Assembly: GCA_944380315.1 (NCBI GenBank)
Contig: CALWHG010000003.1
Span: 30,336-94,335 of the forward strand
Length of the DNA: 64,000 nucleotides
From: an uncultured Lachnospiraceae bacterium
GTDB lineage: Bacteria > Bacillota > Clostridia > Lachnospirales > Lachnospiraceae
Direction of reading: 5' to 3'
A program made the position numbers and the translations under genes. Each line of letters begins with the position of its first letter. The stretch's first letter is position 1. Below, piece by piece: positions 46,110 through 62,688 of this stretch. The notes under the pieces were generated by a model. The model was not told the origin of the DNA. It worked only from the letters and a program-made list of their open reading frames with translations, and did not search any database.

Positions 46110-47279
46110 TTACAGCTCCACCACATCTATGGGCGAGAAGTAGGTCGGCGTAAATATGGTAGGATCCATGCCTCCGCGGAACATGGGCTCTCCTATGGTA
46201 GTATGCCTGAAGCCTGCAAATATGGCTCCAGGAAGGAAAGCATACAGGGCTGACAGGAAATTCCATTCCTTTTCAGGGGCAGGCATGGGACAGTAGCTGA
46301 CCTTTTCAGTTATGCCTATCTCCGCAGGCTCCCTGTCGCAGAATACCAGCACATCCCTCTTTCCCCTTGTGACCATGGCATTGACTGTGTCCGCTATGCG
46401 GGAGACATTTTCATCGTTTGTATTTATGAGCACCAGCTCACCTATGTCCTCTCCGGGCTCCATCATGACATTGACATGGAGATAATCCTCACTGTCTATG
46501 ACGCCGCAGGCATCGCCGGAAAGCTCCACCACCTTGGCCTGGATGATCTTGCCGGCCCAGAACATGGGACCATCGCCCACCACGCCAAGCACCTTCTTGT
46601 CCATCCATGCTATGGCCTGGGCAAAGCAGGTATCGTCTATGACGTCAAGCTTGGCAAAGAAGCTGTCGTGATAGCGCTGCACCGCATCATGAAGCTCACG
46701 AAGCCGGTCTCCCCCTGTGCGAGTCTCCGCCATGGCTGCCGCCAGTATGATGGTGCTGACCGTATTTGAATAAATGGTACGAAGCCCTGCGTTGTTGTCT
46801 CCCGGTGGATTGTTTGTATAAAACAGTATGTCCGCCTCCTTTGCAGTAGGAGACTCAGGGCTGTCCGTGATGGCCACCGTGGTTATGCCATGCTTTTTAC
46901 ACTGCTTCATGGCCTCTATGGTCCTGTATATACGTCCGGATACGCTTATGAACAGAGCTATGGTATCCTCACTCTGCCCCTCGTAGTCATAATGACGGCT
47001 CAGCTCTATGGCCTCCACAGCCTCGTATTCCACATCGGGAAGATAATGCTCAAAGGCAGCCTTGGCGGAAAATGCCACCAGGTTGGAGTCACCGCAGCCC
47101 GTAGCCAGCACATGCTTCGCTCCCTTCAGAGCGGGATGCTCCATGATCTTCTTCACTCCCTCGATGGAGCGCTCCACCTGAGCCATGGTAAGGGGATCCA
47201 CGTCCATGCACTGAGCATGGAAGCTATCCTGAAAATAAAACTTCCTATAATATTTCTGATCATTCAGTCTTCTGTACAT
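46110..47279 (-). CDS. SIS-domain sugar-phosphate isomerase/deglycase-like protein (1)
   Basis: 389 residues, two SIS subdomains. First: LATGCGDSNLVAFSAK (about 60) and FISVSGRIYRTIEAM (about 110). Second: DGPMFWAGKIIQAK and the family motif SEDYLH (SE-x-[YFW]-x-H, shared by all four SIS proteins here), where GlmS-type enzymes carry catalytic residues. C-terminal FLPGAIFAGF matches the others. GAGGTGA precedes the ATG. Likely splits or isomerises an amino-sugar or fructosamine phosphate. Last gene of the run, nine bases behind SIS 2. Confidence 0.82.
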   Translation of the reverse strand: MYRRLNDQKYYRKFYFQDSFHAQCMDVDPLTMAQVERSIEGVKKIMEHPALKGAKHVLATGCGDSNLVAFSAKAAFEHYLPDVEYEAVEAIELSRHYDYEGQSEDTIALFISVSGRIYRTIEAMKQCKKHGITTVAITDSPESPTAKEADILFYTNNPPGDNNAGLRTIYSNTVSTIILAAAMAETRTGGDRLRELHDAVQRYHDSFFAKLDVIDDTCFAQAIAWMDKKVLGVVGDGPMFWAGKIIQAKVVELSGDACGVIDSEDYLHVNVMMEPGEDIGELVLINTNDENVSRIADTVNAMVTRGKRDVLVFCDREPAEIGITEKVSYCPMPAPEKEWNFLSALYAFLPGAIFAGFRHTTIGEPMFRGGMDPTIFTPTYFSPIDVVEL

Positions 47280-47287
47280 ATCTCACC

Positions 47288-48490
47288 TCAGCTTACCCAG
47301 GTCTCAGTCCTGAAATCATAACGTCCGTTGAAAAAGTTGTGCTCCCTCACTGCTGCCTGATATGCCGCCAGCAGAGATCCCGGTATGAAATCCACCAGTG
47401 GAGACATCCACTGCTCAGGAGCCTTTACGATGCGGCAAACACTTGCAGTGCCTGCTGCAGCCATGGAATCATAGCCGCTGTCTGCTATGCCGTAGATGTT
47501 GTCCGGCTCCTCTCCCTCCTTTTTCTCCATGCGGAATGCTTCCTCCGGAAGGTCCGTAACTATGAGTGTGGGCCTGTGCTGCGCCAGACATCCGTTGATC
47601 GTATCCTTCATACGGCTGAGGCTCAGATCTGCCTCGTTGATCATGACTATGGTACCGACCTCCTCCGGCGCCCTAAGGAAATAGCTGATATGGGCAAACT
47701 CCTCAGAGGTGGTATGGTCACAATAGACTCCGCCGCATTCTATGAACTTCTGCTCCACGAACTGAGCCGAGAAGCCCTCGTTGGCATCTGCTATGAGCTC
47801 GAACTTGCTGAGGTCCTTCATGCGTATGGCCTCCTCAAACATCTGCTCCTCTATGCGGGGCAGGTCCTCAAGAAAGCTCTGAACATAGGAGACCACCTCT
47901 CTCTTAAGGCTGTAAAAGCCTGCCTCATCAAGTACCCCACGGCATACGCCTATATAAGCCGCAAGAGCCGTAAGACCCATCATGCTGGCAAAATAGGACC
48001 TAAGTCCCGGAGAGTTGCAGCCGTCAGGAGTCTCCACATTGAATATCCTCTTGGCTGCCCTTCCGCCTCTGGAATCAGGCGTCCTGGTGATCAGCATGGA
48101 ATCGAGTCCATGATCTGCAGCCTTGTTGAGCGCGACAGCCAGCCTTTCTGCAGATCCGCTGAAGCTGATGGCCACCACCAGCACCTCCTCAGGTGCATAT
48201 CCCTTCCTGAGCCTTGCATCGCTGTAGAAGGCGCAGAGGTCCATGATGTCAGGAGCATTGACCTTTTTGAGACCGCTGAGCTTCCTGAAGCCCTTGAGCA
48301 TGGCTCCCGCCGCAGAGTAGGAATCTCCGCATCCGGTCAGTATGACACGCCTGATGCCCGCGGCAGTCTTCCTGTCCATGACCTTTTCCAGCTTCCCAAG
48401 GTCAAAGCACAGGTCAGCCTGGACCCCGCACAGCTCTCTCAGATCCTCCACCTGATGTGTGATCGAGTTGAAATAATCTTCTTTTTTCAA
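47288..48490 (-). CDS. SIS-domain sugar-phosphate isomerase/deglycase-like protein (2), TTG start
   Basis: 400 residues. The start is TTG at 48490, marked by a very strong AAAGGAGGT just upstream. First SIS: ILTGCGDSYSAAGAM and VAISFSGSAERLAVAL. Second: motif SEEFAH, then IVMINEADLSLSRMKDTING. The end DFIPGSLLAAYQAAV is shared with SIS 3 and 4. DNA here is still of moderate G+C, like the left of the window. Role as for SIS 1; the different pockets suggest different amino or sugar parts. Confidence 0.82.
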   Translation of the reverse strand: MKKEDYFNSITHQVEDLRELCGVQADLCFDLGKLEKVMDRKTAAGIRRVILTGCGDSYSAAGAMLKGFRKLSGLKKVNAPDIMDLCAFYSDARLRKGYAPEEVLVVAISFSGSAERLAVALNKAADHGLDSMLITRTPDSRGGRAAKRIFNVETPDGCNSPGLRSYFASMMGLTALAAYIGVCRGVLDEAGFYSLKREVVSYVQSFLEDLPRIEEQMFEEAIRMKDLSKFELIADANEGFSAQFVEQKFIECGGVYCDHTTSEEFAHISYFLRAPEEVGTIVMINEADLSLSRMKDTINGCLAQHRPTLIVTDLPEEAFRMEKKEGEEPDNIYGIADSGYDSMAAAGTASVCRIVKAPEQWMSPLVDFIPGSLLAAYQAAVREHNFFNGRYDFRTETWVS

Positions 48491-48568
48491 GTCTTACCTC
48501 CTTTCTTTTACAGGAAGCAGACCAAACCTCCTGTCAAAGGGATATATTTTGATATATCTCAAGCCTGC

Positions 48569-49828
48569 TTATGCCGATGCATGGCTTGCCCGATATTTTC
48601 TGCTCATACTGAGTGCTATGCAGCCGAAAACAAAGGCTGCTGTGTAGGTCACTATGCCTATGACAAAAGCTCCGGTAAAGGATCCGGTGGCATCGTAAAT
48701 GCCGGCTATGGGAGATGAAACAAATGCTGCTATCATACTGTTTCCGATCATAAGTATAGACCAGATATCGGAATAATATTTGTCTCCCACTACTGTACGG
48801 GCTACCAAAGGTGCCTGCACGCTGTACATGTTGAGTCCTCCAAAGCCTGTCAGGAAGCATGCAGGGATCAGAAGCGAATGATTCTGTATGGACAGCATCA
48901 TACCGCCCATACCAAGTGCCATGAATACCATGCCCCAGATCATGCCCGCTTTAACTCCAAACTTATCATTTATCTTTCCAAGGATAAATCCACAGCAGAC
49001 TGCGCCCACACTGTAAATGCTTGAAGCTATGGATCCGATCTCAACGCTCTGTCCCAGCTCAAGTGTGGCAAAGGTGGCGATGTTATTGGGCACACTACTT
49101 CCAACGCTATAACAAAGGCAAACCGCCCATGCGAAATACAACATGGGAAGTCCAAAAGCTATTTTCCTATCAACACCCCATACTTTTGAGTCATTATCAT
49201 TTGATTTTAAGTTTTCATCCTCAGCGCCATAAGGAAGTATCCCCATCTCAGAGGGACTCTTAAGATGTGTAAAGATATAAGGTATAGCCACTATGAGAGG
49301 TATAATGGGAAGTATGTGATACGCAGACCTCCAACCGAACCTGACGATGAGCTGAGCGCTTATAAGGTTGAATATGATACCAAACGCATTGCCGCAGGAA
49401 ACACAGATACCAAGAGCTGTACCCGTCTGCTTTTTGAACCACATGTTTATGATGAGGGGCATAGCCAGGTACTGGGTGAACGCACAGCCTATACCTATCA
49501 TGACAGCTGAAACATAAAAGCCATTGATAGAGCTGTATGAACCCATCAGGAACATGCCAAGCAGCATGAGAAGGAGCATAGGCGGTACTACATACCTAAG
49601 CTTTTTGGTATTTAGCACCTTGCCAGCCACAGGATAAAGCACCGCCATGACAGCGCACTCTATACTGCTTACCAGCATCATCTGCCATACCTGTATGCCA
49701 AAATCATTAACAACGGGAGATACAAAGTTACCAAGACTGACCGTAACTACACTGGTGGTAAAATACACAAGCACACAGCATATCACTATAGTCCAGGCAT
49801 AATGTCTTTTTTGTTTAGTCTCTTTCAT
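48569..49828 (-). CDS. MFS transporter (1), oxalate/formate antiporter-like
   Basis: 419 residues, 12 membrane segments. The opening HYAWTIVICCVLVYFTTSVVTVSLGNFVSPVVNDFG is typical of the OxlT-like/MCT branch. A cytoplasmic loop (about 200-215) divides the halves. Paralogue of MFS 2, with which it overlaps by four bases (ATGA). It exports or imports a small organic acid or amino compound; given the gene run, a sugar-amine or its product. Confidence 0.85.
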   Translation of the reverse strand: MKETKQKRHYAWTIVICCVLVYFTTSVVTVSLGNFVSPVVNDFGIQVWQMMLVSSIECAVMAVLYPVAGKVLNTKKLRYVVPPMLLLMLLGMFLMGSYSSINGFYVSAVMIGIGCAFTQYLAMPLIINMWFKKQTGTALGICVSCGNAFGIIFNLISAQLIVRFGWRSAYHILPIIPLIVAIPYIFTHLKSPSEMGILPYGAEDENLKSNDNDSKVWGVDRKIAFGLPMLYFAWAVCLCYSVGSSVPNNIATFATLELGQSVEIGSIASSIYSVGAVCCGFILGKINDKFGVKAGMIWGMVFMALGMGGMMLSIQNHSLLIPACFLTGFGGLNMYSVQAPLVARTVVGDKYYSDIWSILMIGNSMIAAFVSSPIAGIYDATGSFTGAFVIGIVTYTAAFVFGCIALSMSRKYRASHASA

Positions 49829-51090
49829 ATCTCCTTCTTTCTATTAGCCACAGAAAAATTATTTGCTGTGATACCAATAACCATTGCTATAAAATACAAA
49901 ACTATGGCCATTAAAAATGCACCCGCGTATGTCCCGAACTTATCATAGAATAGTCCTATTGAAGAATATAATCCTCCTCCTATAAGGCTATTTGCCATCA
50001 TCATCCAGGACCAAATCTCAGAGTAATTTCTTGTTCCAACTATACTTTTGGCAAGAAGCGGGCATTGAACAGCATACATGCTTGCGCCAAGCCCCACTAT
50101 AAAGCCTCCAGGTATCACAAATAGTGGAGTTGCTCTGCTTAGAAGCATTATCGAATACCCAATAAGCGCTGTTCCCGCACCCCAAATCAGGCCTGCCTTA
50201 ACGCCAAATTTGTCATTTAATCTGCCAAGAACAAGACTGCTTATTATAGTTCCTATATTGACCGCTATTCCAGCCACAGACCCAAAAGATATACTCTGTT
50301 CCAACTCCATAGTAGTATACGTTGCGGTATATCCAGATACGCCGCTAGCATAGCTTATAACTATGCAGGCAAGCCATGCCAGATAAAAAAAGCCTGATCT
50401 AAATGCCTGTTTTAAAGTAAGTCCCCATTCCTGAATACTGCTTTCGGATGTTTCTCTCGAGTCAGTTTCAAAGCAATGGCTTTCTTTAATTCCATACGGT
50501 TGCTCCCCAATTTCTTTGGGAGTTCTAATTATTAAAAATACTGCTGGAAGCGTGATGACTGATGCGATCAATGCCAAGATCAAATAAGCTACTCGCCAAC
50601 CAAATACTACTATAAGTTGAGCAGATAGCATATTATATACGATACCGGCTGCACTACCCACAGCAATAACAGCACCCAAAACTGTTCCTGCTCTTTTCCT
50701 GAACCACATATTGATCACGGTCGGTATAGCTACATATCCAGTAAAAGCCTGAGCTATTCCTGTGATCAAGCCTGAAAAATAAAACATATATGGAGATCTA
50801 TATGTCGACATTAACGCAAGTCCAGTGATCTCAGCGATTGAAGCGATCCCCATGACCAGATTTATCTTCCGGCTAAGTAGAATCTTTGACGCAGTCGTAT
50901 ACATTAATGCCATTGAGATAGCCTGAATGCTAACATACATGGTCAAACTACTTACTTCACATCCAAGGTCTTGAACTATGGGGGTAACAAAATTTCCCAT
51001 AGCAACAGTAAGTGCCCCTGCAGAGCCCATCTTGATGCACATACAGGCTATCATTATTTTCCAGGCATAATGTATTTTCTTATTATTCAT
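49825..51090 (-). CDS. MFS transporter (2), oxalate/formate antiporter-like
   Basis: 421 residues from the ATG at 51090, with GGAG nine bases before. Same start pattern (IHYAWKIMIACMCIKM, VAMGNFVTPIVQDLG) and same loop position as MFS 1, so the two are tandem duplicates. Their base composition differs: MFS 2 is clearly A+T-richer than MFS 1. The C-terminus reads ITANNFSVANRKKE. Confidence 0.85.
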   Translation of the reverse strand: MNNKKIHYAWKIMIACMCIKMGSAGALTVAMGNFVTPIVQDLGCEVSSLTMYVSIQAISMALMYTTASKILLSRKINLVMGIASIAEITGLALMSTYRSPYMFYFSGLITGIAQAFTGYVAIPTVINMWFRKRAGTVLGAVIAVGSAAGIVYNMLSAQLIVVFGWRVAYLILALIASVITLPAVFLIIRTPKEIGEQPYGIKESHCFETDSRETSESSIQEWGLTLKQAFRSGFFYLAWLACIVISYASGVSGYTATYTTMELEQSISFGSVAGIAVNIGTIISSLVLGRLNDKFGVKAGLIWGAGTALIGYSIMLLSRATPLFVIPGGFIVGLGASMYAVQCPLLAKSIVGTRNYSEIWSWMMMANSLIGGGLYSSIGLFYDKFGTYAGAFLMAIVLYFIAMVIGITANNFSVANRKKEI

Positions 51091-51144
51091 GAACAGCATC
51101 TCCAAGCAAATTACTATTTGATATAATCTCTGATTTAATGACAC

Positions 51145-52131
51145 TCAGAATAAATAATAAATACCAAGCAACATTACCCCAACAAAATACAACCCTATTC
51201 CACAGCATAAAAGGAGTTTTGTTTTTTTGCTGATATTTGAGAATTCCTTATAGTATATTCCCCAAAATATAGTCCATACATTTGCTGTCTTTCCAAATAA
51301 AAATGAAACGGTGGCACTTAATGCAGGCATGGAATATATAGACATCAGATTACCGCCGTAATGGCAAAGCGCGGCAATAGCAGACATTATAATAGGCTTC
51401 TTGCTTTGTCCAACACCAAAAACTACTTTCCACTGTTTTTTTACAGAAAACTGTATTCCAGTGACTATTGCAACACTAATAAATGATCCAGATGCCATGT
51501 ATGCACATGTCAATACCGGTGCAAATCCACGTGCAGTACCTGCTGCCGTACCCATTGACCAACCGTTTTGAAGGATCGCTGTGAACAGCATAAGGATTAT
51601 TACGCCAATTGATATTGTTCTTGAATCATTTTGGACATTATGATCTTTATCTCTTGATCTTGAAGCAAAGGCGCAAACAAAGCCTGCCAAAATCAAAATA
51701 ACCGTAGTTGCTATGATCAAAACCAATGCCGTTTCATCTTTAGGAAGTCCTTCTTCAGCTATCGACGTAAATACTCCAAGTATTATACCTATACCACCAC
51801 TTATCGTAGTCGATAATAATAATCCGACCTTTCCTATAACCACAAGGGAGCAATACAGCCCCAAAGACATCAGGCCGCCACCTATGAGTATATCTATTAC
51901 TGTATCTATGTTTTCCATCGATATGGAAAATATACTACGGTCTAACAGAAACGGTGATACCACAATGGTGATGGCCCAGATCAAAATAAAAGAAAAAGTA
52001 TATAGCCAAAAGATTACTCCAGCTATAGGATATCCATTTAAATGTTTTTGAATCTGCATCCAGCTTCCCCACATTGCCGCTGCAAGCAATGTGAGGAACA
52101 TAGATACTTCCAAAGAAAAATAGGTTTCCAT
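51145..52131 (-). CDS. DMT-superfamily transporter (RhaT/glucose-uptake-like)
   Basis: 328 residues from the ATG at 52131; an upstream TTG is less likely. Ten membrane segments in two repeats, with MWGSWMQIQKHLNGYPIAGVIFWLYTF at the start, as in RhaT and GRP-type sugar carriers. The ribosome site is poor (GGGAC), so translation may depend on the gene before it, which ends 20 bases upstream. Sugar or fructosamine uptake fits. Confidence 0.75.
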   Translation of the reverse strand: METYFSLEVSMFLTLLAAAMWGSWMQIQKHLNGYPIAGVIFWLYTFSFILIWAITIVVSPFLLDRSIFSISMENIDTVIDILIGGGLMSLGLYCSLVVIGKVGLLLSTTISGGIGIILGVFTSIAEEGLPKDETALVLIIATTVILILAGFVCAFASRSRDKDHNVQNDSRTISIGVIILMLFTAILQNGWSMGTAAGTARGFAPVLTCAYMASGSFISVAIVTGIQFSVKKQWKVVFGVGQSKKPIIMSAIAALCHYGGNLMSIYSMPALSATVSFLFGKTANVWTIFWGIYYKEFSNISKKTKLLLCCGIGLYFVGVMLLGIYYLF

Positions 52132-52151
52132 AATTAAATGTCCCAAACGAT

Positions 52152-52541
52152 TTAAATGCAATTGATTATTAAATCAACCTCTGCTGACTTATCAAAAGCT
52201 TTGATTATAATCCTTTGAAAAATCAATGCTTTTCCATCATGAATAATGATATCTTTAGACGAACCAACTAAAGCCGTTTTACTTTTCCCTGCTGCCTCTT
52301 CCGGGCCACTGTCGCCATTATAATTGCATCGAGGCGGAAATACTCGTTCCAGATCATCGCTGATGTCTTCTACAATTTCCATCCTTGCCTCAGGTATGAA
52401 GATTATGGCAACATTAGGATCATGCACAGAAATAGTACAAAGGCCTTCTGTAATACCACTCTCCTTAATTGCTTTGTTAACTGTATCTGTGATATCATAA
52501 TTTTCTGATTTATCTATTATAATATTTGTAGAGTAAATCAT
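52152..52541 (-). CDS. YjbQ-like (UPF0047) protein, probably without the usual histidines
   Basis: 129 residues, one YjbQ-like unit. The order GLCTISV, DDLERVFP, KTALVGSSKDIIIHDGKALIFQ matches the YjbQ fold (trimeric, once called secondary thiamine-phosphate synthase). The His of the HTSA motif seems displaced (VHDPNVA), and the two His of the EHD and SHIK motifs are Asn/Gly and Lys. The site is therefore likely changed or dead. AGAGGGGG stands before the ATG. Confidence 0.7.
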   Translation of the reverse strand: MIYSTNIIIDKSENYDITDTVNKAIKESGITEGLCTISVHDPNVAIIFIPEARMEIVEDISDDLERVFPPRCNYNGDSGPEEAAGKSKTALVGSSKDIIIHDGKALIFQRIIIKAFDKSAEVDLIINCI

Positions 52542-52551
52542 TTTTCCCCCT

Positions 52552-53709
52552 CTATATGATCTCCACCTTACTATTACCTATGGTCGATCCTATCTTTGAT
52601 TTTTTTTGTAAAGAATCTTCTCCCCTGAAATATACTTCATTATTAAGAGCAGCAACATAAGCTGCCAATAGTGTTCCAGGAATGAAGTTTAATAGAGGCA
52701 TCAAAATCTCAAAATCTTTTGGAGTTTTAGGCACCTCGCATACGATAACATCATCGGGGGCTCCATAAACATCCTTTGTGGAATCAACGATCAACACGCA
52801 GGGTCGACCTATTTTTCTTGCCTGCTGCATAGTTTCTATCATCCTTGAATGATCCTTATCGTTTGCACTGGCAATAAAAATAAGTCCTATCTTTTCAGGA
52901 TCATGTCTGAAATAATTGACATGACACCAGTTCTCTGAATCGATCGCATTTGTCATCATTCCTGCTGCTTCTACATATTTTGCTCCCACAAATGCAGCTG
53001 TAGAATATAAAGGACCATCCCCTATAACCTCCGCAGCTATATGGTCTTTCCAAGCAACTGCTGTTTCAAACATCAACGAATCTATAGATTCAAATTCCTG
53101 TTTGTATGCTTCAGTGTATGATTTCACTGCATCACAAAATACGTCCATTGCAGAGGCATCTATCAGCCCTTTAGAGATCCCCAGTTTTACCCCAAGCATG
53201 GAAAGTCCTAAAATAGAAGCATAATAATTCCTCAGTCCAGGACCAGGCTCAGGAAATACAGGGGTATTAACTATAAGCGCATATTCCGCTTCTTTAGCAG
53301 CACGTGAATCAGGAATATTAGTCACCGCCATAGTATGACATCCCTTGCTATTCGCCCTGCGCAATGCCTCCATTACTCTTATCGGGCTTCCGGATGCACT
53401 TATGCCAATCACTAAAGTAGTATCTTCCTGTCCTTCTCCATACTCAATATATCTGGCAGCATCAATACAACGTATTGCTTCAAAGTTTGACCCAAACACT
53501 CCGGCATATTTTTTGAATACAGGGACAGAAGCTATTCCAGCCAGATAAGAATCTCCGCATCCTGTAAGATAGATCTTTCTTATCTTCTTAAGAAGATCTC
53601 CCGGTACAGCTTCCAAGCCCTTTTTTATACCTTCGATCTGTGTCTCACACATAACAGGTATATTTAAACATTGCCTACGGAGCTGATTGTCGAATTGTAT
53701 TTTTTCCAT
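52552..53709 (-). CDS. SIS-domain sugar-phosphate isomerase/deglycase-like protein (3)
   Basis: 385 residues from the ATG at 53709, chosen for GGAG six bases upstream; an ATG four codons earlier is possible. First SIS: YLTGCGDSYLAGIAS and IGISASGSPIRVMEAL. Second: VGAKYVEAAG, motif SENWCH, IFIASANDKDHSRMIETM. End: NFIPGTLLAAYVAAL. Lies between the single and the double YjbQ-like genes. Confidence 0.83.
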   Translation of the reverse strand: MEKIQFDNQLRRQCLNIPVMCETQIEGIKKGLEAVPGDLLKKIRKIYLTGCGDSYLAGIASVPVFKKYAGVFGSNFEAIRCIDAARYIEYGEGQEDTTLVIGISASGSPIRVMEALRRANSKGCHTMAVTNIPDSRAAKEAEYALIVNTPVFPEPGPGLRNYYASILGLSMLGVKLGISKGLIDASAMDVFCDAVKSYTEAYKQEFESIDSLMFETAVAWKDHIAAEVIGDGPLYSTAAFVGAKYVEAAGMMTNAIDSENWCHVNYFRHDPEKIGLIFIASANDKDHSRMIETMQQARKIGRPCVLIVDSTKDVYGAPDDVIVCEVPKTPKDFEILMPLLNFIPGTLLAAYVAALNNEVYFRGEDSLQKKSKIGSTIGNSKVEII

Positions 53710-53731
53710 CGCTATCTCCATTCTACATACA

Positions 53732-54532: not shown

Positions 54533-54541
54533 GTTTATACC

Positions 54542-55732
54542 TCAAATATATATTTCGATCTTACTATTCTTCATTGTTCTAGTGCCATCAGCAAAATATT
54601 TACCAGATCCATTATATTCTTTAGCCTTGGGGTCATATTCATTAAAGAATTTCCTATCTGCCAGAGTACAGCAATATCCCGCTAACAATGCCGCCGGTGA
54701 ATAATCCATAAGCGGAAGCATCCATTCAAATCCAGGTTTTGTTTCCGGAATGTTAACTACATTTGCCTGCTCCGGGAAATCCTTTATATCTCCATTAGTT
54801 ATAACCAGGACTGGACGACCTATACCAACTGCGGCATTTACAGTTTCTATAGTCCTGCCATAGCTATTGCTTGTTCTGTCTGCAAAGATTACTGTGCCGA
54901 TAGTTTCAGGACCACTGATATGATAGTCTATATGACACCAATCCTCTGAATCATCATAATTTCCCATCGTACCTGTGCACTCCGCAAACTTTTCAAGGCC
55001 AAATAATGCAGAATACAATTCCACACCATCCCCTATAAAATCAAACCGCTCAAAGTCTTTCCAAGTCTGTGCCAGTTCAAACATCTTTTCATCTATTTCA
55101 GAAAGACATTCCTCATAACTATGTACATAAGCTTTGATTTCCTCTGCTATTGCTTTATCTTCGCCGGGCTTCAATACATTCCTCACTCTGCCCATCCTAC
55201 AGGCTATGGCTAATAACCCTACCATGCTTGCAAGATAGGATCTAAGTCCGGGAAAATCATCCTTCATTTTAGGAGTATTTAATACCAAGGATCTTTTTGC
55301 TTCTTTTGCTACTGCGCTTTCTCCATTATTTGTAAGTGCAAAGCTGAAGGCTCCCATTTCATTAGCTTTTTTTAAAGCTTCAATCACCCTGGAGGTACTT
55401 CCCCCCGCACTTATCCCTATCACTAACGGACTATTAGGCTCCCCTATACCAATATCTTTTGACATCATATACCTGGTAAAATCTATGCTTTCTACCATGT
55501 CGCAATTAAAAACTCCTGATAGCTTTAGCATTATAGAAGCCATTGCACCGGCTGCGGCGATAGAATCGCCACAGCCGGTAATATAGATTTTCCTTATGTC
55601 AAAAGCTTCAGCCATAGTCATAATACTCTGCTGAACTTCGTCGGAAAAGCAGTAATCAACCTGCTCATCAATCATTTTAGGCAAGCTTAATACCTGGTCA
55701 CCAAGTGGATTGGAATATACATTCTTATCCAT
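54542..55732 (-). CDS. SIS-domain sugar-phosphate isomerase/deglycase-like protein (4)
   Basis: 396 residues from the ATG at 55732, with GGAGGG before it. First SIS: YITGCGDSIAAAGAMAS and IGISAGGSTSRVIEAL (the middle Ser of SxSG is Gly). Second: LEKFAECTG, motif SEDWCH, IFADRTSNSYGRTIETV. End: DYSPAALLAGYCCTL. It lies 16 bases behind the kinase gene, an order like frlD-frlB pairs though reversed. Confidence 0.83.
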   Translation of the reverse strand: MDKNVYSNPLGDQVLSLPKMIDEQVDYCFSDEVQQSIMTMAEAFDIRKIYITGCGDSIAAAGAMASIMLKLSGVFNCDMVESIDFTRYMMSKDIGIGEPNSPLVIGISAGGSTSRVIEALKKANEMGAFSFALTNNGESAVAKEAKRSLVLNTPKMKDDFPGLRSYLASMVGLLAIACRMGRVRNVLKPGEDKAIAEEIKAYVHSYEECLSEIDEKMFELAQTWKDFERFDFIGDGVELYSALFGLEKFAECTGTMGNYDDSEDWCHIDYHISGPETIGTVIFADRTSNSYGRTIETVNAAVGIGRPVLVITNGDIKDFPEQANVVNIPETKPGFEWMLPLMDYSPAALLAGYCCTLADRKFFNEYDPKAKEYNGSGKYFADGTRTMKNSKIEIYI

Positions 55733-55748
55733 AAACCCTCCAAATGTT

Positions 55749-56690
55749 TTAAGCATACTGAGCCTTATACTTCTTATAAAGCTCCTCTGCCTGATTAAAC
55801 GCAAACTCTCTTACTGCCTTAAAGTCAGGAATAACTCCGAACTGCCTTATGTTCTGAGCAGCTGCAACATTCGCCATAATACCAACCATTAATGCATCAT
55901 ACCCCTCTGCATATGCATATAATGCTGCTCCTGTTGAAGTATTTCCACAGCCCGTCGGATCTACTATCTTGTCAGACGGCGCAGGAGGGAGATAATAGTA
56001 CTTATTCGGAGTTACCATATAAGCACCTTTTCCGCCTACCCTGAAAAGAGTCATATCTACCGGGAGCTTTTGAAGCTCCTTTATACATTCTTCCTCAGTC
56101 TCTACTTCAAATAAGTGTCGTGCTTCCTGTACATTGATACTAAATATGTCAACGTTCTCAATGGCATTCAATACCTCAGGCATGAACTCTTTATACGAGC
56201 TGGGGCCTTCGATCTCCCACATGAGCTTAAAACCGTCTCGTGCCTTTATCTCTTTCATTTTTCTCCAATAAACACGATCAACGTTTTGAGCTACATATAC
56301 TCCCTTTACACCGCCCTGCTGAGTCCATACTCCTATTTCTTCAGGAGACGTTTTCATATAGCCAAAATCCTGGATCCAGTCACTTCTAAATCTCTTTGCA
56401 GAAGGATCAGGGCTATATGTACCATCTTCGTTATAAACTAAATATGAATGATTGCAATGTTCACACTTTACCTTTATTCCATCCGGTATAACATCGTTTT
56501 TAGCCATCCAAGGGTCAAATAACGGATGATAATCCTCTCCAACATTAGAGCACTGCATCACGCTGTCTGTATAAAGTCTTACTCCTGAATAAGCAAATGT
56601 TGCAGGACCTCCAATATGTTCTGATGATTTAGTTCCATCAAGAAATGTAACTCTGTCAAGCATCACATTTCCGCCTATAACATAATCCAT
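55749..56690 (-). CDS. PfkB-family carbohydrate kinase, MAK32-like, Asn at catalytic Asp
   Basis: 313 residues. N-terminal GGNVMLDRVTF and SEHIGGPATFAYSG are PfkB-like. The C-terminal signature is DPTGCGNTSTGAALYAYAEG; the usual D-T-x-G-A-G-D ends in Asp, the catalytic base, here Asn. The same Asn is known in MAK32-type relatives, so the change may mark a subfamily and not decay. A metal-like site HCNH (about 75-78) is unusual. GGAGGCG precedes the ATG. In Amadori pathways a PfkB kinase phosphorylates fructosamines before a SIS deglycase acts. Confidence 0.82.
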   Translation of the reverse strand: MDYVIGGNVMLDRVTFLDGTKSSEHIGGPATFAYSGVRLYTDSVMQCSNVGEDYHPLFDPWMAKNDVIPDGIKVKCEHCNHSYLVYNEDGTYSPDPSAKRFRSDWIQDFGYMKTSPEEIGVWTQQGGVKGVYVAQNVDRVYWRKMKEIKARDGFKLMWEIEGPSSYKEFMPEVLNAIENVDIFSINVQEARHLFEVETEEECIKELQKLPVDMTLFRVGGKGAYMVTPNKYYYLPPAPSDKIVDPTGCGNTSTGAALYAYAEGYDALMVGIMANVAAAQNIRQFGVIPDFKAVREFAFNQAEELYKKYKAQYA

Positions 56691-56708
56691 AAACGCCTCC
56701 AGTTTGAT

Positions 56709-57665
56709 TTACTCCTGAGTTTCACTCGCCTTAAGTGCAGCCAGTTTTCTCTTTCTCATATCACTCTCATTTTTCTTTACACGTACATAGGAAAGTATAA
56801 ATAAGAGAGAGGTTGTAATTATATAAGGCATCGCTGAAAGAAACTGCGAATCCGTGATATAAAGCTTTGAATAATTTGTGATAGCATCTGCCAATCCAAA
56901 TACTATTGCCAGGAGAGCAGCTCCTATAGGAGAAGCATTTGCTATGGTTGCAGCAGCCATTCCGATAAAGCCTTTACCACCTGTCATATCACGAATAAAC
57001 ATGTTCTGATATCCCATTGACAGGAACATTCCACCAAGGCTGGCGATCAGGCTTGCCATTACAAATGCTATCGTATAGATCTTATAAGGATTTATTCCTA
57101 CAGACTCTGCAGCCTGGGGATTCTGACCCACAGCTCTGATCCTAAGTCCAAGCTTTGTCCTGAATATAAGGAACCAAACCACGAATATCATAATGATAGC
57201 AATATAGGTAAACCCATTTTGTCCGGAAATGATATTTCCTATAAATGGAATATGCTGAATAATAGGAATATTAACCTCGGGCATCTGAAGGGACGCAAAA
57301 TATCCAGCAGTATTTGCTTTATTTCCAGTCATCACCCACATGATATAAATAGTTGCTCCTGACATTGCTGTATTCAGAGCAATGGACATGAGGTACAGAT
57401 CGACCTTCATTATAAATGCCGCAAAGCAAAGGAACAGCGTGATCAGAACAGAGCTCAATGCTCCAGCCAATATTCCTAATAACAGATTTTGTGTCAAAGC
57501 ACTAAAAATAACTCCGGTAACAGCAGATATAAGCATCATTGACTCTGCTGCCATATTTGTCAAACCACCCTGTAGTGATATGGTTGCGCATAAAGCAACA
57601 TACATTATCGGGGTAGCTATTCTTAAAGCTGAGAAGAAAAATGTCTCGATATATTCTATGCTCAT
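56709..57665 (-). CDS. BMP-type ABC transporter permease (2)
   Basis: 318 residues, about nine membrane segments. LRIATPIMYVALCATISLQGGLTNMAAESMM and GQNPQAAESVGINPYKIYTIAFVMASLIASLGG are typical of the second permease (NupC/YufQ-like) of nucleoside-type importers. It overlaps permease 1 by four bases (ATGA). Confidence 0.88.
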   Translation of the reverse strand: MSIEYIETFFFSALRIATPIMYVALCATISLQGGLTNMAAESMMLISAVTGVIFSALTQNLLLGILAGALSSVLITLFLCFAAFIMKVDLYLMSIALNTAMSGATIYIMWVMTGNKANTAGYFASLQMPEVNIPIIQHIPFIGNIISGQNGFTYIAIIMIFVVWFLIFRTKLGLRIRAVGQNPQAAESVGINPYKIYTIAFVMASLIASLGGMFLSMGYQNMFIRDMTGGKGFIGMAAATIANASPIGAALLAIVFGLADAITNYSKLYITDSQFLSAMPYIITTSLLFILSYVRVKKNESDMRKRKLAALKASETQE

Positions 57666-58768
57666 GCCACAACCTCTCCTTTCTTTTCCTGTTTTTCATT
57701 TTCCATCGACATCTTGTAAATGACTTTATCCTTTGACTTCTTCAGGAAATTCTGAGCAGCTATAAACAGTATAAGTACTGCCTGCATCATATTTACAAAC
57801 TCGATAGGAATGTTGGAAGAAAGATTAAGTACAACTGCAGATGTTCTTACATAAGCCAATACAAATGCAGCTAAAGGTATATAGATAGGTTTCTTCCTAG
57901 CAATAACTGCAACTATCAGCGCATCCATACCGATGTTTGTCAGTGTGCTGTACTGATAACGGGTATACATTCCAAAAGCATCTACGCAAGCGGCAGCTCC
58001 GGCATATAATCCTCCTATAAGCTGTGCTATAAGTATTACCTTTGTAGTATTAAGTCCAGAATACTTTGCAAACATTCCATTAGATCCACATATACGGATC
58101 TTTGTTCCTATACGCATTCTGTCATACATAAGACATGCGATCACCCATCCAATAATACTTATAAATATTCCTGCGTGAAGATTAGTGCCAGATATAAGCT
58201 GAAAAAACTTTCCATTATCAGGATACATCGGGCTGCAAAGGAATGCTTGTCCTCTATCAGTAAAGAACATCTTTAAAAGCCATAAAGACAGGTAAAGCAG
58301 CATATAGTTCATTATGATCGAAGTTACCATTTCCGAAACTTTAAGCTTTTCTCTACCTATTGCCGGCACCATGGCAAGTGCGCCACCAACTGCACAGCAT
58401 ATTATGAGCAATATCGCCACTCCCAGGATCCAAGGAATACCATCAAAGATCGGAGTATTAAACAGCACTATACAAGCCACTGCAGGAGCAAAATTTACTA
58501 TACCTTCTCCTATAAGATTGAATCTTCCACATCCATAAATGAAGCACATTCCGCATCCACCTAATACATAGGGGATAAACTTACCCATCAACTGGCCAAA
58601 CCTTCTAGGAGTTGTAAAAGGACCAAGAACAAAGTTCTGAATGACCTCACCAGCTGAAACATCAGAAGTAATCACTATAAGCACAAGTGTGATACAATAT
58701 GCTACGAGCAGGCCCAAAACTACGCGCAAAAGCTCAAATATGGCCTCAACTCTCTGTACTTTTTTCAA
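57662..58768 (-). CDS. BMP-type ABC transporter permease (1)
   Basis: 368 residues, about nine membrane segments. YGCGRFNLIGEGIVNFAPAVACIV and ICGSNGMFAKYSGLNTTKVI are typical of the YufP/NupB-like permease. Four-base overlaps (ATGA) join it to the ATPase gene before and permease 2 after. Confidence 0.88.
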   Translation of the reverse strand: MKKVQRVEAIFELLRVVLGLLVAYCITLVLIVITSDVSAGEVIQNFVLGPFTTPRRFGQLMGKFIPYVLGGCGMCFIYGCGRFNLIGEGIVNFAPAVACIVLFNTPIFDGIPWILGVAILLIICCAVGGALAMVPAIGREKLKVSEMVTSIIMNYMLLYLSLWLLKMFFTDRGQAFLCSPMYPDNGKFFQLISGTNLHAGIFISIIGWVIACLMYDRMRIGTKIRICGSNGMFAKYSGLNTTKVILIAQLIGGLYAGAAACVDAFGMYTRYQYSTLTNIGMDALIVAVIARKKPIYIPLAAFVLAYVRTSAVVLNLSSNIPIEFVNMMQAVLILFIAAQNFLKKSKDKVIYKMSMENEKQEKKGEVVA

Positions 58769-60315
58769 TACAGCTCACCCCTTTCTTCTTCTGTCATCTT
58801 CTTGATGCCGAGCATATACTCACCCATCATTTCATCATTGACCTTAGAAGTATCTGTAAACTGAGCAGCAATCTTACCATTTCTCATGATCAGAAGCCTG
58901 TCTGACAAATTCATTACTTCATTAAGATCAGAAGAAATAAGGAGTACCCCAAATCCCTTTTCTCTAGTATACTTATGAAGCAATTTATGTATAAGTGATG
59001 CAGTTCCTACATCAATACCACGAGTAGGCTGATTAGCAATGATTATATTAGCCCCACTGGTAAATTCCCTCGCAACGATTACCTTTTGAATATTTCCTCC
59101 TGAAAGCATCCTGACCGGGCTCTTTTCCGAATCACAAGCGATCTCAAATTCCTCTATGCAATCCTTTACGTATTTCGACAGCGCTTTCTGATCAATAAAT
59201 GCTCCCTTTATAAATTTAGGATTGTCCAGGTAAATTGAAGCAAGATTGTCATAGATCGACATATCCTGAGCACATCCATAGGTCATACGATCCTCCGAGA
59301 TATGCGCTATACCCAGCTTCCTGATCTGATTTATATTTAGACCCTTGATTTCCGTTCCATTTATAACTATTGATCCTTCGGTCATAGGAAGAAGGCCTGT
59401 GATCATTTCAGAGATTTCATTCTGGCCGTTTCCCTCTACTCCGGCTATACCAACTATCTCTCCAGCTCTTACTCCAAAGGACACATCATTTACGATCTTC
59501 TTACCAATATCATCTACATATGAAACATTTCTTATCTTAAGTATTGTTTCCCCTGTACTTGCATCATCCTTTTCTATAGAATTTACTATATCTCTTCCAA
59601 CTATGAGTCTTGAAAGAGTCTTTTCATCCATGTCCTCTCTCTTTATAAAGCCCGATACTCTTCCATGTCTAAGTACAGTAGCTGAATCACACAGCTCCAT
59701 AACTTCATCAAGCTTATGAGAGATAAAGATTATTCCATATCCATTCTCTTTCAAATTTTTAAGCTGAACAAAAAGTTCTCTTACCTCCTGCGGTGTCAGT
59801 ACCGCTGTAGGCTCATCAAGGATCAAGACTTTAACACCTCTGATCAATGCTTTTAAGAGCTCTACTTTTTGTTTAAGACCGACACTTATGTCTCTGACTA
59901 GGGCATTGGGATCTACCTTCAGCTGGAACTTTTCCGATGCCTCTTCTGTCATCTTTATAGCTGTTTTCTTATCAAAGATCTGCCCAGGGCCTGGCTCTAT
60001 ACCCAAAACCACATTCTCTGCTACAGTAAGATTCGGGACAAGCATAAAATGCTGGTGAACCATTCCTACACCTTTAGCTATAGCATCCAAAGGATTTTCC
60101 ATATGGCATTCTTTGCCTTCAATAAAGATCTTTCCTTGCTGGCAATCTTCCAGTCCGAAAAGGATCTTCATGAGCGTGGTCTTGCCTGCGCCATTTTCCC
60201 CTATAAGCGCATGGATCTCTCCTTCATTAACGGTAAAGGATATATCTTTATTAGCCATGAATCCATTGCTATAGATCTTGGTAATCCCTTCCATTTTTAA
60301 AAGTTCTTTAGCCAT
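58765..60315 (-). CDS. BMP-type ABC transporter ATPase, double ABC domain
   Basis: 516 residues from the ATG at 60315 (GGTGGAGTG before it). Domain 1: Walker A GENGAGKTT, signature ISVGLKQKVELLKAL, Walker B LILDEPTAVL. Domain 2: degenerate Walker A GVEGNGQNE, signature LSGGNIQKVIVAREF and Walker B-like IIIANQPTRGID, as in sugar and nucleoside importers (RbsA, NupA). Works with both permeases and the BMP lipoprotein. Confidence 0.92.
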   Translation of the reverse strand: MAKELLKMEGITKIYSNGFMANKDISFTVNEGEIHALIGENGAGKTTLMKILFGLEDCQQGKIFIEGKECHMENPLDAIAKGVGMVHQHFMLVPNLTVAENVVLGIEPGPGQIFDKKTAIKMTEEASEKFQLKVDPNALVRDISVGLKQKVELLKALIRGVKVLILDEPTAVLTPQEVRELFVQLKNLKENGYGIIFISHKLDEVMELCDSATVLRHGRVSGFIKREDMDEKTLSRLIVGRDIVNSIEKDDASTGETILKIRNVSYVDDIGKKIVNDVSFGVRAGEIVGIAGVEGNGQNEISEMITGLLPMTEGSIVINGTEIKGLNINQIRKLGIAHISEDRMTYGCAQDMSIYDNLASIYLDNPKFIKGAFIDQKALSKYVKDCIEEFEIACDSEKSPVRMLSGGNIQKVIVAREFTSGANIIIANQPTRGIDVGTASLIHKLLHKYTREKGFGVLLISSDLNEVMNLSDRLLIMRNGKIAAQFTDTSKVNDEMMGEYMLGIKKMTEEERGELY

Positions 60316-60336
60316 CACTCCACCTACCTTTAAAAA

Positions 60337-60364
60337 GGCTGCCGCACGCCTTTGTGCGGCAGCC
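60337..60364 (-). terminator. Intercistronic hairpin/attenuator between binding protein and ATPase
   Basis: GGCTGCCGCAC (60337-60347) and GTGCGGCAGCC (60354-60364) form a perfect 11-base stem with a 6-base loop. On the minus strand TTTTTAAA follows. It looks like a partial terminator that gives more binding-protein mRNA than transporter mRNA. Confidence 0.8.
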
Positions 60365-60385
60365 CTATAAAAACTCAAGTTACTA

Positions 60386-61612
60386 TTAGTTTGAAAATCC
60401 TTCTAAGCGATAATCAGGGTCATCTCTGAACTGAGCGAAAGTCTCATAATCAGGAAGATCATAATAGCTAGGAACTACGATCTCACCATTCTTTATCTTA
60501 TTTTCAACCTCAGTTACCTGCTCCTGAACATCCTCAGGGGTATGTGCATAGTAGTTATCGTTGTAGGAAAGTCCTACACCATTATTAGCAATGCCGAATC
60601 TAACATTGCCCATCTCAAGGCTTCCGTCAACTATACCATCAAATGCCTGTACGCAGCACTCTGTGATCCTCTTCTCCATTGATGTTACAAGGTTCTCATA
60701 TCCCTGAACATCTGCATCAGAGTTTGCATATGTTGTCCACTGGTCATAGTCAACACCGATCAGATACTTGCCATTTTCAATTCCTCCAGCCTCTGTACAA
60801 GCCTGAAGAGCACCAAGGCAATAAGATCCACCGATGTTATATACAACATCACAACCATTTCCATACAGTACGTTTACAGTCTCATAGCAACCCTGAACTG
60901 TCTGATCAGAATAGTAAGCTATATCGTACTCAACCTCTTCACCCTCGGCTGCCATATTATCGTTATAATACTTTACGCCTGCAAGCCATCCGGTTACAAA
61001 GTCATTAAGTATAGGAGAGTCCTGGTTCGCAGCTGCTCCGATATGATTTGACTCTGTCATAAGACACTGATAGATAGCTGTAAGGAAAGAACCTTCATCC
61101 TGTCTGAAACTTACACCAAATACATTGGGATACTCACTAAGATCAAGTGTAGGTGCTGTATCATAAAGAATGAACTTCATATCAGGGAAGTTGCCCACAT
61201 TCGCAAGCAGGTCATCCTGAATATACCAGCTTGAGCTTATTACATAATCATAACCACCTGTCTCAATGGCATCCAGAAGTGTGGTAGTTCTTGTTGAAGC
61301 ATCAAGACCTCCCTCTACCAGGGTCATCTCTACACCATGCTTCTCTGCAATCTCCTGAGCTGCATAGTATCCAAGGTCATTTGTTCCATAATCTCCTATG
61401 TTCTGGAAAGCAAAGAACAAAAGCTTCTTGCCTTCAACGGAATCCTCTCCGCCTGCCTCTGCTGCTTCTTCTCCCGCAGCTTCTGTTTCTGCTTCTGCTG
61501 CAGCCTCAGTCTCAGCCGCTGCAGCTGTGGTTTCTTCTGCAGAGCTTCCACATGCTGCAAGTGATGCAGCCATCATAGCTACTGCCAAAAGTCCTGCAAT
61601 ACGTTTTTTCAT
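60386..61612 (-). CDS. BMP-family substrate-binding lipoprotein
   Basis: 408 residues from the ATG at 61612, with AAGGAGG before it. Signal peptide and lipobox LAACGSS (Cys at about 21), then an Ala/Glu-rich linker. BMP (PnrA-like) domain: LLFFAFQNIGDYGTNDLGYYAAQEIAEK, VISSSWYIQDDL, GCDVVYNIGGSYCLGAL and LIGVDYDQWTTY. Known relatives bind purine nucleosides or other small polar molecules. Feeds the ABC importer downstream. Confidence 0.9.
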   Translation of the reverse strand: MKKRIAGLLAVAMMAASLAACGSSAEETTAAAAETEAAAEAETEAAGEEAAEAGGEDSVEGKKLLFFAFQNIGDYGTNDLGYYAAQEIAEKHGVEMTLVEGGLDASTRTTTLLDAIETGGYDYVISSSWYIQDDLLANVGNFPDMKFILYDTAPTLDLSEYPNVFGVSFRQDEGSFLTAIYQCLMTESNHIGAAANQDSPILNDFVTGWLAGVKYYNDNMAAEGEEVEYDIAYYSDQTVQGCYETVNVLYGNGCDVVYNIGGSYCLGALQACTEAGGIENGKYLIGVDYDQWTTYANSDADVQGYENLVTSMEKRITECCVQAFDGIVDGSLEMGNVRFGIANNGVGLSYNDNYYAHTPEDVQEQVTEVENKIKNGEIVVPSYYDLPDYETFAQFRDDPDYRLEGFSN

Positions 61613-61659
61613 TTTTTTCCTCCTTCTACATATATAGTTAATGGGATCTCCCATTAAGT

Positions 61660-62469
61660 TCAGCCTGATATGCTTCTTACCTCTTTCATATAAGAAGCAA
61701 CTATCGCCTCGTCTATTCCACCGCCCCAATTATTTCCTTCAAAACATCTGCCGACCAGCGCGCCATCTGCATTTCTCAGTCTCGAAGCAGCACTCTTTAC
61801 ATCAGTTCCTCCTCCAAGAATGATCGGAAGGTCTGGATAAGCTTCTCTTATATCAAGCTCCATCCTATTATTCTCTTCCTCATTTTTACTCATTATCTCT
61901 ACGGCGTTAGCTCTAACCATTACTGCAGATGCAACTCTGCTGAGTAGAGCTTCCTTATCGTATCCTCCATGGAAATGGTAGCCCGCTATCTCAGCAAGAA
62001 GCTCTACATCTTCGGCTTCTATCTTCTTCCTATACTCTAATACCTTCAGTGGATCAGCATTGATAACACCTCCAAATGGAGAAGTCGTTTGCCCAACCAG
62101 CGCCGTACACCTTGTATAATCAGCTTTAACTGATTTTGCGACTGCAATTGATGGTGTTATGCAGTTCCACATAAGCTGAACTCCGATTTTAAAATCCGGT
62201 CCAACATTTTTCTTCACTTCATTAGCTATAACTGCCAAGCAAGTGGCTCTTACATAATCACTGTCATCTCCAACCGGATAAACCTTGTCCACGGTTTGTA
62301 TAAGACATCCAGATGCTCCTCCATTTTCCAGAGCCTTCGCATCTCTTATAGCCTTCTCAATAGATGCTTCATAATCTCCATCCTGGTAGAAAGGAGTACC
62401 AGGCATAGGCTTTAAATGTATAAGCCCAAATATCAACTTTTGATTATTTTTCCTAGCCTCTTTGAACAT
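61660..62469 (-). CDS. BtpA/SgcQ-family protein
   Basis: 269 residues from the ATG at 62469, with AAAGAGG eight bases upstream; an ATG at 62487 is the alternative. TIM-barrel: LIFGLIHLKPMPGTPFY, GCLIQTVDK, VGVQLMWN-like IGVQLMWNC, RCTALVGQT and PIILGGGTD with GALVGRCF at the end, a phosphate-binding pattern. SgcQ is the E. coli relative in a sugar operon and BtpA was first tied to photosystem I; no reaction is firmly known. First gene of the run. Confidence 0.85.
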   Translation of the reverse strand: MFKEARKNNQKLIFGLIHLKPMPGTPFYQDGDYEASIEKAIRDAKALENGGASGCLIQTVDKVYPVGDDSDYVRATCLAVIANEVKKNVGPDFKIGVQLMWNCITPSIAVAKSVKADYTRCTALVGQTTSPFGGVINADPLKVLEYRKKIEAEDVELLAEIAGYHFHGGYDKEALLSRVASAVMVRANAVEIMSKNEEENNRMELDIREAYPDLPIILGGGTDVKSAASRLRNADGALVGRCFEGNNWGGGIDEAIVASYMKEVRSISG

Positions 62470-62588: not shown

Positions 62589-62618
62589 TATATACATCAT
62601 TTCACACTTTATAGTCAA
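62589..62618 (-). promoter_or_regulatory. Candidate promoter of the SIS/ABC gene run
   Basis: On the minus strand TTGACT (62618-62613) and TATATA (62594-62589) are 18 bases apart. About 120 bases of untranslated leader would follow before the BtpA-like start; it contains one TGTTCG half-site (62528-62533). Confidence 0.45.
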
Positions 62619-62653
62619 TATATACATGCGGCATTTCATTAAATGGCATGTTG

Positions 62654-62671
62654 CGAACACAAAAATGTTCG
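62654..62671. promoter_or_regulatory. DeoR/GlpR-like operator CGAACA-N6-TGTTCG
   Basis: A perfect dyad of CGAACA (62654-62659) and TGTTCG (62666-62671) lies between the two divergent promoters. The half-sites match those of the E. coli GlpR operator (TGTTCG/CGAACA). A further TGTTCG occurs at 62528. A likely binding site for the DeoR-family protein encoded beside it. Confidence 0.65.
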
Positions 62672-62688
62672 TATTCTTACATTATTGC

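Follow-up and report, generated by a model that had tools for sequence, protein, structure and literature searches.

Importers composed of a BMP-family substrate-binding lipoprotein, a two-domain ATPase and two BPD_transp_2 permeases are known from Treponema pallidum (PnrA/TmpC), Borrelia burgdorferi (BmpD) and Thermococcus kodakarensis (NupDABC). Guanosine fits the density in Lbp (PMC9601137), adenosine is bound by BmpD and stacked on two Phe residues (PMC7093131), and T. kodakarensis takes up nucleosides through a BMP transporter that feeds the ribose breakdown of a pentose bisphosphate nucleoside pathway (PMC12628685). The present paper deals with a stretch of 64,000 nucleotides from an uncultured Lachnospiraceae bacterium (assembly GCA_944380315.1, contig CALWHG010000003.1, positions 30,336 to 94,335; hereafter the window), in which the same importer set, related to these systems through PDB entries, is found within a run of 15 genes. 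Unlike the described importers, it is coupled there to genes for SIS, YjbQ and BtpA proteins and for a PfkB-fold protein with Asn at the catalytic Asp position, designated PfkB(Asn).

Three other systems share parts of this run. The Frl/Fra operons for Amadori products (FrlB/FrlD, FraB/FraD) also place an SIS protein beside a PfkB-fold protein; in the window, however, the SIS proteins are far from the FrlB model, the PfkB-fold protein is without its base, YjbQ and BtpA are present, and the importer is of the nucleoside type. The isomerase domain of GlmS shares the SIS fold and the equivalents of Lys485, Glu488 and His504, but the window proteins have no glutaminase domain, carry Asp in place of Thr302 together with an added conserved Arg, and are followed by YjbQ. 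The sgc operon of Escherichia coli is likewise a sugar-type operon with a BtpA-family protein, SgcQ; the BtpA of the window scores under the TIGR00259 BtpA/SgcQ cut-off (106.5 against 153.4 bits) and has other partners. In line with the initial annotation of this DNA, neither YjbQ nor BtpA is known to take part in the Frl/Fra pathways, and we know of no settled catabolic role for either YjbQ (UPF0047) or BtpA.

On balance, it seems probable that the run is a DeoR-controlled operon which imports and breaks down a nucleoside-like N-glycoside. Such a substrate is preferred to an Amadori product because nucleoside-type genes lie near many related loci and the importer is of the PnrA/BmpD type. The importer and the general goal are of known kinds, but we could name no system that accounts for the core chemistry. 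In the searched literature, which included few subscription papers, no description of a SIS-YjbQ-PfkB(Asn) core was found, nor any paper joining YjbQ with BtpA or UPF0047 with an SIS domain.

Conservation and distribution of the gene cluster

According to open reading frame calls and Pfam and NCBIfam matches, 15 consecutive genes occupy the minus strand from BtpA (ATG at 62469) to SIS4 (end at 46110), in the order of Table 1. The gaps between them range from -4 to 78 bases (47 bases between BtpA and the BMP gene), three being 4-base overlaps. The initial annotation, which had described a single-strand run with short gaps and ATGA-type overlaps, was accurate in this respect, and the families it named (four SIS proteins, YjbQ-like proteins, a PfkB-type gene, BtpA and a BMP importer) were confirmed by Pfam and NCBIfam.

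Seven BtpA-bearing loci, here called type A, were compared: the window, L004, L005, L006, L051, L054 and L022. All 15 genes and the divergent DeoR gene are collinear in five of the six loci other than the window (L004, L005, L006, L051 and L054), representing five Lachnospiraceae species of one other genus, in which the PfkB protein occurs in 5 of 9 genomes. The sixth locus, L022, keeps 11 of the 15 genes; the MFS pair, SIS3 and SIS4 were not seen in the 20 kb fetched. A conserved neighbourhood of SIS, YjbQ, BtpA and PfkB-type genes is thus present in other genomes. Judged from sequence, the cluster is real, is conserved and bears the marks of an operon, which supports the idea of a catabolic-type operon with a BMP importer.

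The guanine plus cytosine (GC) content is 0.35-0.44 from BtpA to MFS1 and 0.45 in MFS2, and then 0.54 in SIS3 and 0.53 in SIS4. This step, at 46110-49828 of the window, occurs despite the identical gene order in relatives and suggests horizontal gain, recombination or piecewise transfer. A chimeric metagenome assembly or unrelated neighbours could also produce such a step, and the genome is divided into 80 contigs; but the same order continues across the step in five other loci, so that an artefact is extremely improbable, and chance neighbours and a chimeric contig were rejected on synteny. Signs of decay or assembly error were seen in two relatives, where SIS1 of L022 is split between frames (about 10900-12155) and the YjbQ gene of L025 (13448-13780) is without the inner stretch holding the first His motif.

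Shorter forms also occur in L057, from the window's own genus, and in L007, from an Oscillospiraceae genome (SIS-YjbQ-YjbQ-SIS-YjbQ-PfkB). With the single PfkB sequence as query, matches were found in 2 of 391 genomes of the class (E 1e-20) and in 8 of 250 of the family (E 1e-15); with a profile, they were found in 1 of 398 genomes of the phylum (E 1e-40), 11 of 397 of the family (E 1e-35) and 3 of 25 of the window's genus. Each count includes the window's genome, and the genome draws overlap. Within the genus, the window's own match is strong (470 bits), the others reaching 285 and 268 bits. Among 72,556 plasmid records 4 matched, one of them spanning most of the query. To judge from these searches, the PfkB family is rare and the operon is an accessory locus.

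Nucleoside-type genes near related loci

Of the 20 PfkB(Asn) loci compared, 11 have IUNH nucleoside hydrolase, PNP/uridine-phosphorylase, ADP-ribosylglycohydrolase-like or deoxyribosyltransferase-like genes nearby, as found with profiles made partly from the same 20 loci and with Pfam run on chosen proteins. Two further loci, L056 and L058, were left out of the 20; their PfkB matches were weak, their stretches about 6 kb long, and neither SIS nor YjbQ was matched there. In L024-L029 and L055, PfkB, SIS and one YjbQ are joined by genes of these four kinds, though not every kind in each locus; a sugar-type ATP-binding cassette (ABC) importer is seen in L024, L028 and L029 (by eye) and in L055 (by similarity). 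The Rhizobium plasmid locus L010 shows the order SIS-YjbQ-uridine-phosphorylase-like, with PfkB, importer genes and a broken-looking IUNH gene.

The order in L057 is IUNH-BMP-ATPase-permease-permease-PfkB-SIS-YjbQ-SIS-YjbQ-IUNH-IUNH. An IUNH gene thus stands at the place of BtpA, and no BtpA match was found in that genome at E 1e-5. L057 is a bridge between the window operon and the nucleoside-type loci. L007 has two IUNH genes about 2 kb beyond its core. The run of L023 (4305-9953) reads PfkB (Asp type)-IF-2B type-BtpA-SIS-PfkB(Asn)-PNP and looks like a ribose-1-phosphate route from nucleosides. Its PNP and IF-2B-type protein are reminiscent of the T. kodakarensis pathway (PMC12628685), whereas an isomerase gene of this type is absent from the Pfam matches of the 15 operon genes in the window.

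Importer and BtpA protein

The importer set of the window is complete, with PF02608, two PF00005 domains and two PF02653 proteins. At E 1e-5 the BMP protein has nine distinct PDB relatives, namely Lbp, a membrane lipoprotein (4pev), BmpA, BmpD, TmpC and four entries named 'Lipoprotein'. By this kinship, the importer is of the PnrA/BmpD nucleoside type. When the BmpD contact positions were mapped onto the window protein, Asn28 was kept, while Phe176 corresponds to Tyr, Asp19 to Phe and Phe27 to Thr. This suggests that the ligand resembles a nucleoside whose base part is unusual; as the base contacts are unlike those of BmpD, the aglycone may be no normal base.

BtpA matches PF03437 well above the cut-off of 30 bits (Table 1). 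Its structural model (pLDDT 75.4, pTM 0.81) was built from 5 near-identical rows, and Foldseek placed ThiE first, followed by ribulose-phosphate epimerase, TrpF (TMt 0.74) and TrpA, with TMq about 0.55; the best PDB match by sequence had E 0.22. The evidence on the fold is generic, and a TrpF-like role would be a guess from the model. Additionally, L031 (genome G368, 4697-9867) has a distant PfkB(Asn) gene and, about 4 kb away, a weak relative of BtpA; between the two is an ABC transporter of amino-acid type (by eye), and neither SIS nor YjbQ was matched.

Several of these genes could also suit the salvage of vitamers, in which the ABC importer would carry a precursor of B6 or thiamin and the PfkB, YjbQ and BtpA proteins would act like ThiD/ThiE parts. 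For each of the four transporter parts the best NCBIfam model is one named 'putative B6 ABC transporter', that of YjbQ is called secondary thiamine-phosphate synthase, and the first Foldseek matches of BtpA are to thiamin phosphate synthase. However, every transporter score is under its cut-off, the four SIS proteins would have no role, the company of the relatives is nucleoside-type, and Rfam gave 0 matches in the window at gathering scores, on which ground riboswitch control was rejected. Vitamer salvage is therefore considered very unlikely.

A number of observations weigh against the nucleoside-like reading. No nucleoside hydrolase or phosphorylase is present in the fetched stretch of any of the seven type-A loci, the window included, and among the 20 loci nucleoside-type genes of every kind are absent from these seven and from L030 and L031. 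Within the window's genome, the 4 IUNH matches lie on contigs other than that of the operon, so that the nucleoside link of the operon is by kinship and importer only. The two IUNH genes of L007 sit past an opposite-strand gene. SIS and YjbQ are both missing from L030 and L031; L023 has SIS without YjbQ, its SIS protein keeping Lys/Glu/His without the Arg found in the others (by eye). Moreover, the base-contacting BMP positions differ from BmpD in our own mapping, the BtpA model is of moderate quality (pLDDT 75, 5 near-identical rows), and its Foldseek overlap is partial.

SIS proteins and sugar-based alternatives

The equivalents of Lys485, Glu488 and His504 of GlmS are kept in all 40 SIS sequences above 250 bits, including the four of the window; the SIS of L023 (148 bits) was left out by this cut. 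Where the position of Thr302 is occupied, it is Asp (38/38), and an additional Arg is conserved in 39/39. At the phosphate-site positions, Ser303 is kept in 38/38, Ser347 in 39/39, Ser349 in 32/39 (Gly in 7) and Thr352 in 6/39. All positions are given in GlmS numbering, with their active-site and phosphate-site roles in that enzyme.

In the SIS tree, SIS1, SIS2, SIS3 and SIS4 each form a six-member clade (supports 100/96, 100/99, 100/100 and 100/100). SIS4 groups with SIS2 (100/100) and SIS3 with SIS1 (91/82), in a midpoint-rooted tree with long-branch warnings, one of which concerns SIS4 with the L007 SIS, the SIS3-SIS1 fork not being starred. From these groupings, SIS3/SIS4 are probably a duplicate of the SIS1/SIS2 pair. 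The idea of several SIS enzymes with different specificity, put forward in the initial annotation, was accordingly replaced by that of one pair duplicated into a second. Enzymes of the GlmS type share active-site residues between subunits, and by analogy SIS1:SIS2 heterodimers are plausible.

The kept Lys/Glu/His also agree with Amadori-product catabolism, in which the PfkB protein would phosphorylate an imported glycated amine and SIS deglycases would split it. SIS1 and SIS2 give weak matches to the FrlB model (28.2 and 15.9 bits), and L064, from the window's genus, has two FrlD-like PfkB genes (by eye) near BtpA and YjbQ. These scores are far below the FrlB cut-off of 430 bits, however, and SIS3 and SIS4 gave no match to that model at E 0.01; the PfkB protein is without the catalytic Asp, and the relatives' company and the importer are both nucleoside-type. 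A plain Amadori system was therefore rejected as the first choice and is regarded as unlikely. A search of PMC12051030 for the catalytic residues of FraB gave no result. Of the imported glycated or nucleoside-like compound that had been envisaged, the nucleoside-like part gains support from the importer kinship and the genes near related cores, and the Amadori part, given the FrlB scores, is not supported.

Catabolism of an amino sugar has also been considered, with the SIS proteins as GlmS/AgaS-like ketose-aldose isomerases or deaminases under an AgaR-like repressor. GlmS models are indeed the best NCBIfam matches of all four SIS proteins and AgaR that of the divergent regulator, but the scores remain far under the cut-offs (35-70 against 381-418 bits for GlmS, 141 against 260 bits for AgaR). 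The change of Thr302 to Asp and the extra Arg, seen in all SIS sequences counted at these positions, are not in favour of such enzymes either, and no amino-sugar deacetylase or phosphotransferase system family is among the Pfam matches of the 15 genes. This alternative is quite unlikely.

PfkB-fold protein with Asn

The PfkB-fold protein matches PF00294 with 69.4 bits, and the ribokinase-fold motifs NxxE and GxG are present, N186/E189 and G247/G249 being invariant in the PfkB(Asn) alignments. In its model (pLDDT 87.8), the nearest Foldseek structures are ribokinases and nucleoside/adenosine kinases. The Asp of the GAGD position, the general base of PfkB kinases, is replaced by Asn in 13/13 rows of a first alignment, at 19/19 places in L032-L050 and in 19/19 rows of a later alignment, these sets overlapping. 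Asp is kept in the 4 other PfkB matches of the window's genome (E 1e-8) and in 5/5 PDB alignments shown, out of 6 PDB matches. Since the catalytic Asp is Asn in every copy read, simple phosphorylation by this protein cannot be assumed, and its earlier assignment as a plain substrate kinase is not supported. A PfkB-fold family in which this Asp is gone from every copy read is unusual.

YjbQ domains and their neighbourhoods

The two YjbQ genes score 187.9 (tandem) and 54.6 bits (single) with PF01894 (cut-off 27); with TIGR00149 (cut-off 67.75), the tandem protein lies above (162.8) and the single copy below (56.6). Their three domains are the only PF01894 matches of the window's genome. The His motifs read from the alignment (HxTA, KH, GH) are kept in one domain of the three, the second half of the tandem protein, and the third domain has 41-49% identity to the five full syntenic relatives. 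The single YjbQ copies of L024, L026-L029 and L010 keep the His motifs, that of L025 having lost a stretch with the first; L057 has one intact copy and one without the first two motifs (by eye). Solved YjbQ proteins form trimers. With one intact and two motif-less domains, this suggests a hetero-oligomer of one active and two inactive domains.

YjbQ was found in 72 of 397 family genomes overall and in 9/9 genomes (7 genera) with an in-clade PfkB(Asn), a hypergeometric value of 1.4e-7 that ignores kinship; in-clade means at least 390 bits, a cut placed at a score gap, and several of the 9 genomes are profile rows. Two genomes with weaker PfkB matches, G418 and G1110 (237 and 243 bits), have no YjbQ. 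A YjbQ gene lies within 5 kb of the in-clade PfkB(Asn) at 11 of 12 places, once as a partial copy, the exception being L023.

As a control, 20 regions were picked by hand, which contain 21 of the 89 YjbQ places not beside an in-clade PfkB(Asn). SIS adjoins YjbQ in 2 of these 20 regions, L066 and L077, where YjbQ scores 163 and 192 bits (63-127 at best in the others) with a profile that was built from core loci and favours them; L080 has a weak SIS match 7 kb from YjbQ. The link of SIS and YjbQ is therefore confined to one YjbQ branch, and a general link of YjbQ to SIS chemistry was rejected. Three of the 20 regions (L064, L065 and L078) have BtpA no more than 12 kb from YjbQ, without SIS or PfkB(Asn) matches.

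Several of the control regions have a character of their own. In L064 (genome G503, 5214-12768), BtpA, an FGGY-like kinase, an amidohydrolase-like protein, YjbQ and the two FrlD-like PfkB genes, partly named by eye, form one run without an SIS match, a different YjbQ-BtpA cluster. The SIS-YjbQ pairs of L066 and L077 are without PfkB(Asn) and have as neighbours a sugar-type ABC importer and a TIM-barrel gene resembling xylose isomerase; L077 also has an ADP-ribosylglycohydrolase-like gene, and L066 IUNH and deoxyribosyltransferase-like genes (all partly by eye). In L070 (2228-9011), an ordinary YjbQ of 115 bits has a BMP-type importer and IUNH at a distance of about 2 kb, and neither SIS nor PfkB(Asn) was matched.

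Proposed mechanism

Gene order, families, kept and lost active-site residues, conservation and the relatives' nucleoside-type company were read directly, and on these a substrate and an order of steps may be proposed. The PnrA/Nup-type BMP ABC transporter would import a nucleoside-like N-glycoside for breakdown in the cytoplasm; this substrate would probably be a ribosyl compound whose aglycone is unusual. The PfkB-fold protein would bind the nucleoside and ATP and, without a general base, either phosphorylate a group needing none or serve as a non-kinase partner. BtpA, which occupies the position of a nucleoside hydrolase in L057, might rearrange or split the glycosidic bond of the phosphorylated intermediate, by analogy with TrpF-like barrels. 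SIS1 and SIS2, acting as a pair, could act on the sugar part, either deglycating it or isomerising it between aldose and ketose in the manner of GlmS. The YjbQ hetero-oligomer would handle the intermediate made by SIS, since YjbQ directly follows SIS. The DMT-type transporter, which has no Pfam match at E 0.001, and the MFS transporters may move substrate or aglycone, and SIS3/SIS4 with the MFS pair would be a later extension based on duplication.

More tentatively, the SIS proteins, the YjbQ hetero-oligomer and the base-less PfkB might together open nucleoside-like N-glycosides by a new enzymatic route, with no nucleoside hydrolase or phosphorylase in the window operon; the key phosphorylated intermediate would be formed or cleaved by BtpA. 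We consider this possible but rather doubtful. If true, it would give a physiological role to this YjbQ branch and to the Asn-type PfkB proteins. Should the proposed catabolism be correct, it would show how some gut Lachnospiraceae draw on nucleoside-like compounds that may be out of reach of standard hydrolases and phosphorylases. Concrete, testable candidates for function are offered by the adjacency of SIS and YjbQ, the Asn-type PfkB and the nucleoside-type company.

Gene list and regulatory region

Table 1. Genes and candidate control sites of the operon region, in window coordinates
Feature	Position	Strand	Evidence
BtpA/SgcQ-family protein, predicted phosphate-binding-type TIM barrel	61660..62469	-	PF03437 104.9 bits; model; Foldseek
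BMP/PnrA-type substrate-binding lipoprotein	60386..61612	-	PF02608; PDB relatives Lbp, BmpA, BmpD, TmpC/PnrA
ABC transporter ATPase, two ATPase domains, start possibly 60315	58765..60378	-	PF00005, 2 stretches
ABC permease A (BPD_transp_2)	57662..58768	-	PF02653
ABC permease B (BPD_transp_2)	56709..57665	-	PF02653
PfkB/ribokinase-fold protein, Asn replacing catalytic Asp (DPTGCGN)	55749..56690	-	Pfam, alignments, model
SIS1, GlmS-type SIS protein, Lys/Glu/His kept	54542..55732	-	Pfam, alignment, tree
Tandem YjbQ (UPF0047), 266 aa, two domains, His motifs only in second half	53732..54532	-	Pfam, alignment
SIS2	52552..53709	-	Pfam, alignment, tree
Third YjbQ domain (single copy), His motifs lost, fast-evolving	52152..52541	-	Pfam, alignment
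DMT-type transporter, weak RhaT match	51145..52131	-	NF010022 25 bits, cut-off 369
MFS transporter 1 (MFS1), nearest organic-anion types	49825..51090	-	PF07690; conjugated bile salt MFS model 86.6 bits, cut-off 400
MFS transporter 2 (MFS2), nearest organic-anion types	48569..49828	-	PF07690; best NCBIfam score 87.2 bits, cut-off 400
SIS3, groups with SIS1	47288..48490	-	Pfam, alignment, tree
SIS4, groups with SIS2	46110..47279	-	Pfam, alignment, tree
DeoR/AgaR-type repressor, divergent; real start uncertain, perhaps 62750	62648..63520	+	Pfam DeoRC and HTH_DeoR
Palindrome CGAACA-N6-TGTTCG, candidate DeoR operator	62654..62671	-	role inferred
Promoter-like TTGACT-N18-TATATA upstream of BtpA	62589..62618	-	TTGAC(T/G)-N18-TATA(T/A)A kept in 6/6 aligned loci

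Both 62648 and 62750 are possible starts of the DeoR protein, because the alignments with five relatives begin at differing residues (34-35 in three, 26 in L006 and 3 in L005). A general scan for consensus promoters gave no excess (34 against 45.6 in shuffles), and the site upstream of BtpA was not among its matches. Terminator-like sites numbered 18 against 10.7 expected, the ten on the operon strand all lying within operon genes. A second CGAACA occurs at 62527-62532. The full palindrome was seen in the window only; when the divergent regions of the six loci are aligned, one GAACA is common to all.

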